IMG/VR virus record: IMGVR_UViG_3300017757_000175
Span: 1 to 22,746 of that record
Length of the DNA: 22,746 bases
Strand: one strand, 5' to 3'
From: a virus
The notes beneath the pieces were generated by a model that was not told where the DNA came from, ran no database searches, and worked only from the letters and a program-made list of their open reading frames with translations. Numbering within the stretch: position 1 is the stretch's first letter; the number at the start of each line of letters is the position of its first letter. A program made the position numbers and the translations under genes. Below are positions 4,758 through 18,815 of this stretch, one piece after another.

Positions 4758-6320
4758 TTATGACCAGTAGGCATGGGATTCAGGCATCTGAAACTCCATA
4801 CCAGCTTCGGTTTGGATTAAGTCAACTCTACGGTCAACACCACTATTTTCTAAGGTTTGAACACCAACATAGATTGATGTGTCTCTATTAAGTCCGTTAC
4901 CGACCAATGGTCTATAAGCAACGTGCTTCATATTAACAGCTAACATCTTAACTTTAGAACCATCAAGGTGAACATTACGAGTTACGTTCATGTCACCATA
5001 AGGGGTACTAATAGTTGTAATATCAGCTCCAAATACCTTCTTCTTACCAGTTAACGCCATATCAGCTCTAAAGTTAGGTGAAATCTCAAGATTATTTGAG
5101 AAATAACCACTTAGCTTATGCAACCAATTATAGGTTGAAGTATCCACAAAGAACAATGTTGCGTTAGCATTATTGTATCGTGGGTCTAAGAAGTTACTTA
5201 AATCATCTAAGAAATCATCTTGTGTTTTAGTTGCTGTTGACAAGATAAAGACATTACCATAGCTTGAAATGAAGTCAACTGCTCCTTGTGTATACCACTC
5301 AGTACCTGAGTCGTATTGAGAACCAAACAATAAAGATTGTTCAATATCCCATTTGTGTTCTACTAATTTCTCTCGCCATATTCGAGCCCACTCGTTAGGT
5401 TCATACTTTAGCACAGTAGCACGAGTTGTGTTATCCATTGCCATCGCTGTTTTCCATATTTGAGTACGACCGTATGCAGTCGAGAAAGGCTGGTCTTTCC
5501 ATGTTTCAGGATAGCCAGTACCTTGACCATGCGCAGTACCAATCACATAAGACCTAATTGGTTCTAATTGACCCGCTATTGAGCGGTCATATGTTTCGTT
5601 AGAACCATTACTTGAACCAGTTTGAAATCCGTTGTCAGCAGAAGAAGCATTAAAAGCGAAAGACGCTAACTCATTTCCTGCACTATCGAATTTAACAATT
5701 GGTCCACTAATCTTAACACACTCCATGTTATCATTATCAACACCTCCATTACTGCTAATATCTGAAGTAACTACTGTGCTAATTTTCATAACGTGGTATC
5801 CATCAACGGAAGTACCAGTAGTTCCATTCATAACAGGTATTTTCACCAGTTGACCTGGTAAAAAGAATGTAGGTCTTGTTCCGGTTCCACCAACAGTTAC
5901 CTTATCGCCTGACTGACCATAAACGCTGGAATTATGTCCAGACGCTTTATAATCAGTAGCCATATAAAGAGCAACATTGTGAGCGACAGCAGAAACTGCT
6001 GCACCCGCATCAGATTTGTCTAACTCGGAATTATGATACTCAGGTGAGCCATTTGAATCAAATGCCACAACATAAGCGTATCTTTTGTGAGATGAAGGTC
6101 TGCGTTCGGTATATTTAAACTCTGGGTCATCTGTTGGTTTCTTCGCAAGTTTAGATACGAAACGAAAGAAAGGGTCCTGAGCTATTGCTAGTTCAGAAAC
6201 TCTGCTTCCGAAATCATATTGTCTACGAAGTACGCCAGTATCGAGACTTGTCCCTAATCGGGACCCAGCCGCACCAGCGCCTACATCAGCAGTTGATTCC
6301 ATTGTAAATAAATCAGCCAT
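4758..6320 (-). CDS. Major capsid protein
   Basis: A 520-aa protein directly downstream of the scaffold gene. The N-terminal arm is 'MADLFTMESTADVGAGAAG' then 'DTGVLRRQYDFGSRVSELA'. The middle (about residues 105-245) holds a Gly/Ser/Thr-rich insertion that may form a surface domain. The C-terminal part carries HVAYRPLVGNGLNRDTSIYV, then 'GVQTLENSGVDRRVDLI' and 'TEAGMEFQMPESHAYW'. I recognise this ending from major capsid proteins of aquatic tailed phages with the HK97 fold, though not from any one named phage. AGGAGAAGG lies eight bases before the ATG. A strong hairpin separates it from the scaffold gene, which would allow different expression of the two. I am confident of the role; the exact family needs a profile search. 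Confidence 0.9.
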   Translation of the reverse strand: MADLFTMESTADVGAGAAGSRLGTSLDTGVLRRQYDFGSRVSELAIAQDPFFRFVSKLAKKPTDDPEFKYTERRPSSHKRYAYVVAFDSNGSPEYHNSELDKSDAGAAVSAVAHNVALYMATDYKASGHNSSVYGQSGDKVTVGGTGTRPTFFLPGQLVKIPVMNGTTGTSVDGYHVMKISTVVTSDISSNGGVDNDNMECVKISGPIVKFDSAGNELASFAFNASSADNGFQTGSSNGSNETYDRSIAGQLEPIRSYVIGTAHGQGTGYPETWKDQPFSTAYGRTQIWKTAMAMDNTTRATVLKYEPNEWARIWREKLVEHKWDIEQSLLFGSQYDSGTEWYTQGAVDFISSYGNVFILSTATKTQDDFLDDLSNFLDPRYNNANATLFFVDTSTYNWLHKLSGYFSNNLEISPNFRADMALTGKKKVFGADITTISTPYGDMNVTRNVHLDGSKVKMLAVNMKHVAYRPLVGNGLNRDTSIYVGVQTLENSGVDRRVDLIQTEAGMEFQMPESHAYWS

Positions 6321-6389: not shown

Positions 6390-7265
6390 GTTGTCCAGTT
6401 TCTGGTCAATACCTAGTATAGAATCAAATACTTGGTCATCCTTAGATGTTTCAACTGTCGCACTACCTGCTGTAGCTAATGAACGTGGTTGCTCTTGTGT
6501 CTTTCTCATCTGTGTAGCAACTTGCTGTCTTGCGTTATCAGCAATATTAGATTCACGTTCTCTTCTTTTCATAAGATAATAAATATCATCCAATTCAAGA
6601 GATTTGTTTTTAGCGAAATCAACAAAAGTAGACCATTCATCATCTGTCATGTCTACCTTTTGCCTAAATGCAGTCTCCCGTGCGAGTCTTTGGTTTTCTG
6701 TTTTTTGTTTTCCTAACTCATTGTTAAGTCTACGTTGAACAATACCATCAACTGTAGCCCCAAATACTTTAGCTGAATCCGACTTAGGGTCAGTAAAAGC
6801 ATCATCTGGGTCAAATTGAAAATCCTCAGGAAGTTCCATGTTCTGAGACATACTCTCTGGTGCTTGACCACCACCCTCAAAATAATTCCGCACATGCTGA
6901 ATTAAATTAGGGTCTTCTCGCATTGCATCGAGTATCGGCATATATGGTTCTAATTCATTAAGCTTGCCATTAAGACGTTTAGCTTCACGACTAGAATCAC
7001 TATACCTTTTTTGCAAAGCATCATCACCTTGCTCTTGAACTCCGCTAGGGCTCGCTGGCGTGTTATCGCTTAAATCTTGCGAGGTTGACTGCGAATATTC
7101 GCTATCTATAATGCCTCCATTAACGCTAGAATCTAATTCTGCGAAAAAATCACTAGTATCAATACTATCTCCGCCATCATCAACAGAATTAATATCTACG
7201 TTATTGAGGTCTTTGACTTGACTTTCGGGGGCTTCTTGAGCGTTACCTACTTGTTCTTGTGCCAT
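6378..7265 (-). CDS. Capsid scaffolding protein
   Basis: A 295-aa, acidic, Gln/Ser/Asp-rich protein between the portal/HNH genes and the major capsid gene. The N-terminal 90 residues look disordered. A helical region follows (DALQKRYSDSSREAKRLNG, then 'ELEPYMPILDAMREDPNLIQ'), a layout typical of phage scaffolds: 'kry...s.e...l....e...P.l..m..dp.l...v'. The C-terminal third is basic and helical, as expected for the capsid-binding end of a scaffold. AAAGGA precedes the ATG at 7265. No protease motif is visible, so maturation protease activity must come from elsewhere or be absent. Assignment rests on position, composition and the helical pattern. Confidence 0.8.
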   Translation of the reverse strand: MAQEQVGNAQEAPESQVKDLNNVDINSVDDGGDSIDTSDFFAELDSSVNGGIIDSEYSQSTSQDLSDNTPASPSGVQEQGDDALQKRYSDSSREAKRLNGKLNELEPYMPILDAMREDPNLIQHVRNYFEGGGQAPESMSQNMELPEDFQFDPDDAFTDPKSDSAKVFGATVDGIVQRRLNNELGKQKTENQRLARETAFRQKVDMTDDEWSTFVDFAKNKSLELDDIYYLMKRRERESNIADNARQQVATQMRKTQEQPRSLATAGSATVETSKDDQVFDSILGIDQKLDNAFG

Positions 7266-16378: not shown

Positions 16379-16480
16379 AATAACTTTAATATACACCCCT
16401 TATATATATAATGTTTATAAATATATAATATCTATAAGCGCTCTATTATTTAATAAGGGGGGGTAGTCGAACCTAAGGTA
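16379..16480 (-). promoter_or_regulatory. Probable promoter area of the leftward structural operon
   Basis: The stretch is highly AT-rich (repeated TATATA runs) and lies between the first minus-strand gene and the plus-strand promoter. Several TATAAA- or TATATT-like boxes are possible, so I cannot single out one promoter. A short palindrome (TTATTTAATAA) lies at about 16,447-16,457. Confidence 0.3.
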
Positions 16481-16492
16481 AATGACCATGTG

Positions 16493-16521
16493 TTGTCAAG
16501 AATTTTTTTACAAAATGTTAT
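16493..16521 (+). promoter_or_regulatory. Sigma70-like promoter for the rightward genes
   Basis: TTGTCA at 16,493-16,498 and TGTTAT at 16,516-16,521 are separated by exactly 17 bases. The -35 box matches five of six consensus bases and the -10 box four of six. Transcription would start near 16,529 and give a 100-base leader before the ATG at 16,629. Confidence 0.5.
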
Positions 16522-16545
16522 GGAGTGTTTTATTGATAGGTACAC

Positions 16546-16557
16546 CTCATTAATGAG
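16546..16557. promoter_or_regulatory. Twelve-base perfect palindrome in the leader, possible operator
   Basis: CTCATTAATGAG is perfectly self-complementary and lies about 20 bases downstream of the predicted transcription start. It could be an operator for a dimeric regulator, or a weak hairpin in the leader. No regulator gene is visible in the window. Confidence 0.35.
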
Positions 16558-16628
16558 ATTCGTGTTTATTGATTTTAGTTATTTTTGATTTTAAATGTTT
16601 TATGATTAATTAATAAGGAGTAATAGTA

Positions 16629-16967
16629 ATGAATAAAATAGTTGAGTTGATACTCAGTCAAATGGGTAATCAAGAACCAGTCTTAGGTAAAGCTGAGATG
16701 AAGGCTGTAGCACTTGCTACTATAAGTCAGAACTTCGCGATAGCTGCTCGAAGGGGTAGACCTATCTTTGCTAGTAATCTAGTCAAGGATATGGGTGCCT
16801 TTAACAATGCAGCATCAGGAGGTATTGACCTAACTTCTTTACTCATGTTAGCTCAAGCTGAGAAAGCAGAGGCAACTGACACAGTAGACGCGACAGCCGT
16901 TGATACTTTTAGTCAGAGGTTAGATGCTATTGAAGCTGCTGTAGCTAAGGTAGCAAAAGCAAAGTAG
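16629..16967 (+). CDS. Ala-rich 112-aa protein, first rightward gene
   Basis: The protein is Ala-rich with a basic start, a central GRPIFASNLVKDMGAFNNAA, and a helical end (VDTFSQRLDAIEAAVAKVAK). It has no Cys or Trp, no signal peptide and no clear enzyme motif. TAAGGAG stands seven bases before the ATG, so translation is strong. By eye it is less AT-rich than its neighbours. It lies alone at the strand switch, its own promoter upstream and a hairpin and long non-coding region behind it. A role in early expression or as a highly made small protein is possible; no family is recognised. Confidence 0.7.
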   Translation: MNKIVELILSQMGNQEPVLGKAEMKAVALATISQNFAIAARRGRPIFASNLVKDMGAFNNAASGGIDLTSLLMLAQAEKAEATDTVDATAVDTFSQRLDAIEAAVAKVAKAK

Positions 16968-16982
16968 GCTCTTTGCCTACTT
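16962..16982 (+). terminator. Hairpin over the stop codon of the first rightward gene
   Basis: AAGTAGGC at 16,962-16,969 pairs with GCCTACTT at 16,975-16,982, eight perfect pairs with a TCTTT loop; three more pairs can be added outside a one-base bulge. The TAG stop codon is inside the stem. No T-run follows, so it may be a weak terminator, an RNA stabiliser or the start of the structured region behind it. Confidence 0.45.
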
Positions 16983-17194
16983 GCTCCATCGCCGCTACGC
17001 TCGCAATTAGAAACAGCTGCTTGTGTATCGGAACTATGTAGTTATGTAGGGTTATTTGTATATTTATACTACTCTCCAATGTGTATTGAATGTTACAACT
17101 ACAGATAGCCCTATAAACTACTTGTATATTACAAATATTTAATAACATGGTCATAAAACTATTGTACCACTAAAACCAATAGTTAACTTCTTTA

Positions 17195-17225
17195 GCTCTA
17201 TAGGAAGTAAAGCAGGAGATAGAGC
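17195..17225 (+). repeat. Seven-base-pair perfect stem-loop
   Basis: GCTCTAT (17,195-17,201) and ATAGAGC (17,219-17,225) are fully complementary, with a 17-base purine-rich loop (AGGAAGTAAAGCAGGAG). The exposed loop contains ribosome-site-like AGGA and AGGAG strings, though no start codon follows at a suitable distance. Confidence 0.5.
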
Positions 17226-17290
17226 ATATCATAAAAAATAATAAGCAATCACCCACATGGCAGTATTGAAGCTGTAGAGGGAGAGGATAT

Positions 17291-17315
17291 GAAGATATTC
17301 TTCGGTCGCGTGACC
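17291..17315 (+). repeat. Two adjoining small hairpins
   Basis: GAAGA-TAT-TCTTC (17,291-17,303) is followed without any gap by GGTC-GCGT-GACC (17,304-17,315). Helices that abut in this way can stack on one another in RNA, which supports a folded molecule. Confidence 0.5.
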
Positions 17316-17355
17316 ATAGTTGGTTAGACAGAGTGAGGTTAAGATGTTAAGGGAG

Positions 17356-17370
17356 CTCATAACTTATGAG
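17356..17370 (+). repeat. Palindromic hairpin
   Basis: CTCATA and TATGAG flank a three-base loop (ACT), a perfect six-pair hairpin inside the structured region. Confidence 0.45.
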
Positions 17371-17431
17371 TGTTGACGTAGCGCATTGCTAAAAGAGCCG
17401 TAAATGCCAAGCAACCAAGCTTATTATTAAT

Positions 17432-17545
17432 TTGTGATTTTGTTTGAGAAGCCGTAGACATGTTGGTAGAATTCGGACTCTATCTTAAAAGACGTGTAGT
17501 GGAGTTAGGTAGGTGTAGTGCACTGCAAGTCCTAATAAATCACAA
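17432..17545 (+). ncRNA. Stem-closed element with tRNA-like parts, candidate small RNA
   Basis: TTGTGATTT (17,432-17,440) pairs perfectly with AAATCACAA (17,537-17,545), closing 114 bases. Inside are GGTAGA/TCTATC (17,465-17,470 and 17,479-17,484, one G-U), and TTAGG/CCTAA (17,505-17,509 and 17,531-17,535), placed like a T-stem next to an acceptor stem but with a 21-base loop that ends GCAAGT where a T-loop would read TTCAAGT. The sequence TCTTAAAA resembles a tRNA-Leu(UAA) anticodon loop. It does not fit a tRNA model: the D-arm is wrong and the T-loop is too long. It may be a tRNA-derived element or an independent RNA. Confidence 0.4.
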
Positions 17546-17582
17546 TAATAATTAATTAAATTAAAGATAAGGAATAATAATA

Positions 17583-17918
17583 ATGTGGATAGAAATTAAA
17601 AAACAATTAATAAATCTTAATAATATTCAAACTATAAGATGGGATGACACAGATAATGATGTATTTCTTTATTTATATCCTCCATCAAATATATCAGCTG
17701 GAAATGGTAGAATTGATTTTCATTGGCCTGTTAAACATAATGATGGTAAGTATAATGATAGTGCTATAGATGATTTACATATTGTTAATAAAGAATTAGC
17801 TAAATTAACAAAAACTTTCCAAAGAATCTTTAAGTGTGACTTAGCTGATAATAGTGATGATGTGATAGTTCAAGCCGTAAGAGATATTGGTCAAAGAGGT
17901 GAATTTATAGGTGAATAA
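17583..17918 (+). CDS. Small protein of unknown function
   Basis: A 111-aa protein, start ATG at 17,583 with AAGGA about ten bases upstream. The N-terminal half is beta-rich (MWIEIKKQLINLNNIQTIRW, then DVFLYLYPPS), similar in general form to small bacterial proteins starting 'W.ei...liNl.nI..I'. The C-terminal half is helical (ELAKLTKTFQRIF) and acidic. No Cys cluster, signal or membrane segment is seen. The family is unknown. It stands between two structured intergenic regions. Confidence 0.6.
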   Translation: MWIEIKKQLINLNNIQTIRWDDTDNDVFLYLYPPSNISAGNGRIDFHWPVKHNDGKYNDSAIDDLHIVNKELAKLTKTFQRIFKCDLADNSDDVIVQAVRDIGQRGEFIGE

Positions 17919-17936
17919 CAACCCCTTTCACATAAT

Positions 17937-17946
17937 ACTAGTATGC
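17937..17946. repeat. Ten-base palindrome
   Basis: ATACTAGTAT is perfectly self-complementary, in the intergenic region downstream of the 111-aa gene. It is followed by CCTAG...CTAGG and GTCTC...GAGAC inverted pairs, so this gap too may fold as RNA. Confidence 0.3.
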
Positions 17947-18001
17947 CGAACGCCTAGATAGATTGAAATGGCACTAGGGTCTCATTCGATATAAAGAGAC
18001 A

Positions 18002-18119
18002 ACGGGAATATAATAAAATGGTATGGTGATGATGTACACATCTTTATTATTGGTGATAAATTTGCTTAGATGAAATACTCTATATAAAATAAACGAAGGC
18101 AAGCCCGTAGACATACCAT
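18002..18119 (+). ncRNA. Stem-closed element with a possible pseudoknot, candidate small RNA
   Basis: ATGGTATG (18,018-18,025) pairs perfectly with CATACCAT (18,112-18,119). ACGGG (18,002-18,006), outside this stem, is complementary to CCCGT (18,104-18,108), inside it, so the two helices would cross as an H-type pseudoknot. Within the stem are GATG/CATC (around 18,029-18,042) and TTTAT/ATAAA (18,043-18,047 and 18,056-18,060). CCCGTAGACAT at its 3' side matches a string in the 17,432-17,545 element. The ribosome site of the next gene (AGGAG before 18,147) lies 20 bases after the stem, so it could be a cis-acting translational control. Confidence 0.4.
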
Positions 18120-18146
18120 ATATAAATAATTAAATAGGAGAGAATA

Positions 18147-18275
18147 ATGCCACATAAAGAAGCAAAGTCTAATAAACGTAAAAGAATATTATTAAATAAA
18201 AAATTAAATAGTCAAGGCAGAACAGCTGCTCAGATTGCAGCTAAGAAGCGTAAATTAGAAAGAAGAGAGCAATGA
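18147..18275 (+). CDS. 42-aa very basic protein
   Basis: The protein starts MPHKEAKSNKRKRILLNKKL and ends KKRKLERREQ, with about 40 percent Lys and Arg. TAGGAGAG stands before the ATG at 18,147, and the stop TGA overlaps the next start (ATGA), so the reading frame is well supported despite being very short. It lies directly downstream of the pseudoknot-like element. It probably binds nucleic acid or serves as a small phage-encoded inhibitor; the family is not recognised. Confidence 0.65.
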   Translation: MPHKEAKSNKRKRILLNKKLNSQGRTAAQIAAKKRKLERREQ

Positions 18276-18460
18276 TTATGAAATTGAAATCAAAAGATGA
18301 AATAACTGTTAAATTAATAGAAAAATTAGAACAACATCAAAAATGTGATATTAATGATGTAGGTGAAAGAGTAGAATTAGATGGTGCAATAAATATACTA
18401 AAATGGGTATTAGGTATTCCACAAGATTATACAAAAGGTGAGAATAATGAATCAGATTAA
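18272..18460 (+). CDS. Small acidic protein, function unknown
   Basis: 62 aa, helical and charged (DEITVKLIEKLEQHQKCDIN, then GAINILKWVLGIPQDY). It begins inside the stop of the basic 42-aa gene (ATGA), and a second Met two codons on could be used instead. It overlaps the next gene by about 14 bases. No family is recognised. Confidence 0.55.
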   Translation: MIMKLKSKDEITVKLIEKLEQHQKCDINDVGERVELDGAINILKWVLGIPQDYTKGENNESD

Positions 18461-18815
18461 TATAATTACTCCATATAAAATGTATGGAACATGGGTATTT
18501 GATGATAGTTCAGTTGGATTAATCAGAGAACCATTTGTAGCAGGTGCTGATGTAGCTATTGATAAAATAGTTGAGCATCTTGGGATTAAAACAGATAAAA
18601 TTGTAATGACATTTTCTAAAGATGATTTTCCTGGTAGTCATGTTAGATTAGATTACCTAGTTAAAGATATAGAAAAAGAAGGTGATTATTATAATATAGT
18701 TGATGATAATTTTAATTTAGAACTTTGGTTATGTCCAGCTTTATTAAAATATTTTGATGAACCACCTAAAGAAATTTATATAAAAATTGAAGAATATAAA
18801 GAGGAGATATCATGA
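18447..18815 (+). CDS. Conserved phage/bacterial protein of unknown function (DUF6717-like)
   Basis: 122 aa from the ATG at 18,447, chosen because AAGGTGAG lies just upstream; the in-frame GTG at 18,438 has no site. The sequence runs ITPYKMYGTWVFDDSSVGLI, REPFVAGADVAIDKIVEHLG, then DDFPGSHVRLDYLVKD and LELWLCPALLKYFDEPPKEI. I recall this pattern ('P.k..GtWvFDd..vGL..EpFvaG...iid', '...F.G', 'WLCPAL.kYF...P..iyi') from a small domain of unknown function, which I believe is DUF6717. The biochemical role is unknown. Its TGA stop overlaps the next ATG. Confidence 0.65.
   Translation: MNQINIITPYKMYGTWVFDDSSVGLIREPFVAGADVAIDKIVEHLGIKTDKIVMTFSKDDFPGSHVRLDYLVKDIEKEGDYYNIVDDNFNLELWLCPALLKYFDEPPKEIYIKIEEYKEEIS

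Follow-up and report, generated by a model that had tools for sequence, protein, structure and literature searches.

A probable mosaic of structured RNA cassettes in a non-coding gap of an uncultivated phage

To our knowledge, GOLLD, ROOL and similar large phage RNAs have gone without an assigned function for over a decade. Accessory hotspots, which serve anti-defence or host takeover, are characterized by their position in the early region, hypervariable content, gain and loss of cassettes and horizontal sharing, while RNAs of the ToxI type consist of a single short repeat in tandem. In phages and prophages, GOLLD has been reported close to tRNA islands, and it rises during phage lysis; both GOLLD and ROOL, which are phage or prophage RNAs without an assigned function, form RNA cages (PMC12286853). 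The pseudo-ToxI escape RNA of phage PhiTE is reported to counter, in trans, an abortive-infection system of the host (PMC3475682). We found no precedent for arrays of RNA cassettes in phages in the literature searched, which excluded subscription papers and preprints.

We analysed an uncultivated virus record of 22.7 kb (the window, that is, the whole stretch of 22,746 nt), in which the terminase, portal and head genes are directed leftward and the genes for a Cas4-like exonuclease and SSB rightward. Its early region also encodes a DUF6717 protein at 18438-18815 (+) (Pfam E = 2.9e-14). Relatives were gathered through a terminase search, which yielded 80 IMG/VR loci; the terminases of named phages were only about 25% identical to that of the window phage. 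We found no relatives among cultured phages, no relative or host link in the bacterial genome contigs searched, and no DNA match of the window or of the arrays of four relatives to named phages or plasmids. The relatives keep the same layout, in which packaging genes directed leftward and a divergent region are followed by a small first rightward gene and then by non-coding sequence, which in the phages read closely extends over about 500-1,400 nt and at times holds a small ORF. The 112-aa product of the first rightward gene is 69-75% identical to relatives in L002, L003 and L004, and its searches gave no PHROG and only a sub-threshold Pfam match. The 111-aa protein encoded after the first array has weak relatives in L010 and L002 (32%).

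The first gene is followed by a gap without a protein gene (16968-17582, 615 nt), which is bounded by the stop codon ending the 112-aa ORF and by the ATG at 17583. We consider it probable that this gap represents one case of a mosaic array made up of structured RNA cassettes, and such an array would be early-transcribed, exchangeable, trans-acting and hotspot-like. The array resembles GOLLD in being phage-encoded, structured and non-coding, and the GOLLD copy of one relative, L050, lies on the same strand and in the same early region as the cassettes; the RNAs of the window differ from it in that they are about 100-200 nt long, unrelated to GOLLD, exchangeable and without tRNA. With ROOL, a large ornate phage or prophage RNA (PMC12286853), the likeness is one of style, and the closest to it is an unnamed 475-nt module of L007, L043 and L056, outside the window. 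Like accessory hotspots, the array stands just after the first early gene, is hypervariable, is gained and lost, and is exchanged between diverged phages, but its payload is mostly structured RNA and not small proteins, with an ORF cassette in L017 and L020. The likeness proposed to the PhiTE pseudo-ToxI RNA would be that of a phage RNA acting in trans. Unlike ToxI, the arrays line up larger folds that are unrelated to one another and have no repeated unit, and no tandem or direct repeats, ToxI-like or other, that could explain the gap were found in 16400-18300.

Table 1. Coordinates of the features discussed, in positions of the window.
Feature	Position	Strand	Basis
Leftward motif copy ACATGGTCATTTA (consensus ACnTGGnCA), divergent region	16479..16491	-	motif scan
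First rightward gene, 112 aa, without known family	16629..16967	+	ORF
Hairpin AGTAGGC-TCTTT-GCCTACT at the end of the 112-aa gene, without U-run	16961..16982	+	sequence
Conserved promoter-like head	about 16988-17157 (helix-to-motif part 17039..17157)	+	9-phage alignment
W1, possible small module: 8-bp stem and 7-bp stem with purine-rich loop	17157..17231	+	z = 0.05
W2, 192-nt structured RNA module, ends AATAATAAGC/GCTTATTATT paired	17237..17428	+	covariation with L070, L094
W3, probable 114-nt module, 9-bp closing helix TTGTGATTT/AAATCACAA	17432..17545	+	z = -1.86, 5/100 shuffles
111-aa gene after the first array, without known family	17583..17918	+	ORF
Second non-coding gap, 230 nt, holding W5 and probable W4	17919-18148		
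W5, start of the second gap, structure unsupported	17919..18017	+	z = -0.45
W4, probable module closed by ATGGTATG/CATACCAT	18018..18119	+	L060 homologue

A sequence-only reading of this DNA had described the gap as a non-coding stretch dense with helices and had taken it for a candidate large phage RNA. The ORF list and the sequence confirm that the gap is non-coding, and the stems named in that reading are present: 7 bp at 17195-17225, the 9 bp that close W3, and two abutting hairpins at 17291-17315. It had overlooked the longest stem, the 10 bp closing W2. We counted 14 perfect stems of at least 7 bp in the gap versus 8.9 +/- 2.8 in shuffled sequences, 8% of which reached 14; as evidence of structure this count is weak and not significant. 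The folding energy of the whole gap beats chance on the + strand (z = -2.98, 0/20 shuffles as good), and on the - strand z was -0.68. Fixed 120-nt windows, which cut across the modules, gave a mean z of -0.65 in gaps versus -0.42 in genes. We did not take the fixed-window energies or the stem counts as proof, because the former are near background and the latter not significant. The evidence that we regard as decisive for a structured RNA is compensatory change in the aligned relatives.

Such changes were found in W2, which has homologues in the arrays of two other phages, L070 and L094. Ten of its 53 consensus pairs are double-changed and still pair, a number that none of 500 shuffles equalled and that slid structures (at most 3) did not approach; as L070 and L094 are near-identical, this covariation amounts in effect to one comparison. 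The terminal helix, for example, reads AATAATAAGC/GCTTATTATT in the window versus TGCAATAAAC/GTTTATTGCA in L070. Judged by the window's own MFE fold, L070 retains pairing through 8 double and 7 single changes and has 13 pairs broken. Upstream of W2 stands W1 in the window, module H in L070 and another module in L094, so that W2 is a closed, covarying module common to non-syntenic arrays. Judged by its compensatory changes, W2 is the sole proven structured RNA module of the window.

These observations bear directly on the idea that a single large ornate RNA of the GOLLD or ROOL kind fills the gap. The whole-gap folding energy would suit such an RNA, as would the occurrence of a 475-nt ornate RNA in relatives and of GOLLD in one of them. 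However, Rfam gave no match in the window, and none to GOLLD or ROOL even when E was allowed to reach 10, W2 is self-contained in two other phages where its neighbours differ, and the head that precedes the array is conserved whatever follows it. A single giant RNA was rejected because the modules are separable and individually shared with other phages, and we regard it as highly improbable. Thus, the part of the sequence-only reading that stands is a structured RNA on the + strand, borne out by the compensatory changes at 17237-17428 and by an arrangement that relatives keep; the part that fails is the one large RNA, in place of which we find a conserved head and modules that are each closed on their own and are recombined in other phages. 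Two of its helices lose their standing as well: the purine-loop stem at 17195-17225 exists, yet its module has a z of 0.05 and no homologue, and the second abutting hairpin (GGTC-GCGT-GACC) is not preserved in the relatives.

The other modules of the window are less secure. W1 has no homologue among the compared relatives' arrays, and both W1 and W5 look like chance level. For W3 no homologue was found in relatives. The second gap, which lay outside the earlier finding, contains W4, whose L060 homologue is 91% identical over 35 nt and is closed by AGAGGTATG/CATATCTCT; the closing helix is thus re-paired with different letters, and RNAalifold on the two sequences gave 2 double changes. The fold energy of W4 itself has a z of -0.39 and that of the L060 copy -2.75. 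W3 and W4 are likely structured modules.

We defined module families by an all-against-all comparison together with a family map. About 20 families were obtained in 25 contigs (the window included, some being close strains), 16 of them in at least two contigs, and all family hits in the map lie on the + strand, i.e. the early-gene strand. Adjacent modules are separated by spacers of mostly 0-14 nt, which are AU-rich and often read AAATTT or ATTTAA. The order of the modules is shuffled among phages: D is preceded by H in L010, by K in L011 and by X1 in L050 and L105; C by A in L013 and by E in L020; A by B or by other sequence; and the 475-nt module by the head in L007 and by X3 in L105. In L007 and L013, module F also turns up 7-8 kb further along, and an 84-aa ORF cassette replaces RNA modules in L017 and L020. 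Overall, the modules come out as compact, structured, strand-biased, exchanged and reordered, each with a terminal helix of its own and, in many relatives, at a constant place after a motif-bearing head.

This shuffling also speaks to the alternative that the modules are cis-acting leaders (riboswitch, attenuator or RNA thermometer) controlling the next gene, for which it can be said that each array is followed, at a short distance, by a ribosome-binding site with a small gene. However, many modules stand in one row, and one and the same module precedes different modules or genes in different phages; the right-hand neighbours of W2, D, A, C and H differ between phages, and for none of these five did we find a constant type of downstream gene. 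The genes after the arrays differ too, the window and L010 having one in common at 32% and the others none. We consider cis-acting leaders unlikely.

Covariation extends beyond W2. In module D, 10/34 pairs covary, and a fold made from one sequence, compared between L010 and L050, showed 9 double and 3 single changes with no pair broken; being made from one sequence alone, such folds are blind to covariation. In the 475-nt module, 24/156 pairs covary in 3 sequences, with 97.6% of cells paired. On three measures (covariation score, percentage paired and double-changed cells), all three modules (W2, D and the 475-nt module) beat 500/500 shuffles, as well as every slid version of their structures. 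Among the variable pairs, G-U outnumbered A-C by 49 to 3, as expected for an RNA of the + strand, a count that is supporting only because the structures were chosen by RNA-energy folding, which biases it.

The alternative that the modules work at the DNA level, as replication origin hairpins, recombination sites or protein-binding palindromes, draws on the fact that the array adjoins the divergent switch point and that the head contains the palindromes TTGTAnnnTACAA. It is at odds with a structure that survives G-U but not A-C changes, with the better folding of the + strand, with the GNRA-type loops and with the presence of a known RNA, GOLLD, in the region of one relative. We consider it very unlikely for the modules, while a DNA-level reading is possible for the head itself.

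The head consists, in order, of a helix (TAGTTAT..GGGTTAT / ATAGCCC..AACTA) and its loop, of TTGTAnnnTACAA and of the rightward motif ACATGGTCATAAA (17145-17157), and its 3' end is ACATGGTCAT. The helix (GGGTTAT/ATAGCCC and TAGTTA/TAACTA) pairs in nine phages, with G-U/A-U exchanges and one double change, whereas its loop varies in sequence and in length (roughly 20-70 nt). Searching with an exact 25-mer from the head gave no match, and a degenerate head pattern gave 11 stretches. The rightward ACnTGGnCA motif directly precedes the array. At no more than one mismatch the window contains just two motif copies, on opposite strands (0.21 expected). In many relatives, leftward and rightward copies flank the first gene, often with identical variant letters; the variants common to both copies are ACATGGTCA, ACATGGGCA, ACTTGGTCA or ACCTGGGCA. 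From this pairing we infer that the motif may be bound by a phage-specific transcription factor or polymerase and would therefore be a promoter or operator; the head and motif could also be an operator or origin instead of a promoter. In L070, the array lies between two near-identical copies, each of about 75 nt, of the head end (6630-6700 and 5880-5955, -), which suggests a second promoter/operator before the next gene. While the hairpin at the end of the 112-aa gene has no U-run, the terminator scan and the sequence show canonical terminators at the matching place in some relatives, e.g. GGGGGCTCTTTGTCCCCTTTTTTT in L070. In the head of L017 (E-coordinates around 885-929), one cassette sits inside another, X1 being nested in the head-helix loop.

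Insertion at AAATTT-like boundaries, even into the head-helix loop as with X1 in L017, and clear horizontal spread would also be expected if the module families were selfish mobile elements (intron-like or IStron-like remnants) for which the AT-rich region is a safe harbour. Against this, the families are mutually unrelated and range over 60-480 nt, they lack a common catalytic core, Rfam scans at gathering scores gave no group I/II match, and no nuclease or transposase ORF accompanies them in the loci read. The group I intron core gave only a chance-level match in 16400-18300 (11.6 bits, E = 9.3), on the wrong strand. Selfish elements are, in our estimation, quite improbable.

For the mosaic array of RNA cassettes, the Rfam scans provide a connection to known RNAs. 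The window had no match to any family at gathering scores, and across the window and 32 loci the only matches were GOLLD in L050 and a single tRNA in L059. A GOLLD (RF02032) score above 150 bits was reached only in L050; the window showed none, even at E up to 10. ROOL was absent from the window at the gathering score, from 16400-18300 at E up to 10, and from the relatives' loci scanned, and permissive scans of 16400-18300 and of six further loci gave nothing meaningful. ARAGORN called no tRNA or tmRNA in the window, hence no tRNA island of the kind seen near GOLLD, and among 16 relatives called a tRNA in L059 only. On these scans, the short cassettes are new RNAs, absent from Rfam, and the GOLLD copy in L050 links the island to known phage non-coding RNAs. 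The earlier suggestion of ROOL or GOLLD thus does not hold for the window itself and proved useful as a pointer, since a sister phage carries a real GOLLD and others an unnamed 475-nt ornate RNA.

The GOLLD of L050 (5532-5949, -; 177.5 bits) lies in the early region, on the early-gene strand, after X1-D-X2-X3-K-M. The RNA of roughly 475 nt occurs in L007 (5888-6408, -), L043, L056 and L107, and partially in L105. Its fold z ranges from -4.9 to -6.1, and the L007 copy gave nothing meaningful in a permissive Rfam scan. On its covariation, it is a candidate for a new class of ornate phage RNA.

If the gap is such an array, the motif in the head would drive an early rightward transcript, and the AU-rich spacers (often AAATTT/ATTTAA-like) may let host RNases of the RNase E or RNase III type free the modules, each of which would then have a host target on which it acts in trans. 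As an accessory hotspot for host takeover or counter-defence, the site would carry RNA, and sometimes small ORFs, as its payload; we name this benefit as the likeliest because of the position and the hypervariability. A more specific version, which we put forward tentatively and hold to be possible and not probable, is an RNA-based accessory island with a dedicated early promoter, at least about 20 unrelated, interchangeable structured RNAs on a polycistronic transcript, cutting at the AU linkers, host targets of their own (e.g. defence systems), and ornate RNAs of the 475-nt type as larger cassettes alongside GOLLD.

One relative thus has its GOLLD in the early region where its sisters carry smaller, exchangeable RNAs absent from Rfam. 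If the cassettes act in trans, RNA effectors would have a hotspot in this region, and thanks to the cassette logic single modules can be screened for function against host defences or essential machinery. If true, 'empty' phage early regions can be dense arrays of RNA genes that ORF-based annotation has overlooked.

Two further cassettes deserve mention. The 84-aa ORF (MLKQLIERLSHKYRHQDYYKWIGPEDG...) is mobile, being present in L017, L020 and L075, with a cassette position in L017 and L020. Module E (L020, L090 and L023) carries a tRNA T-arm-like AGGTTCGAATCCT though no tRNA was called there, and is a possible tRNA mimic or RNase P substrate.
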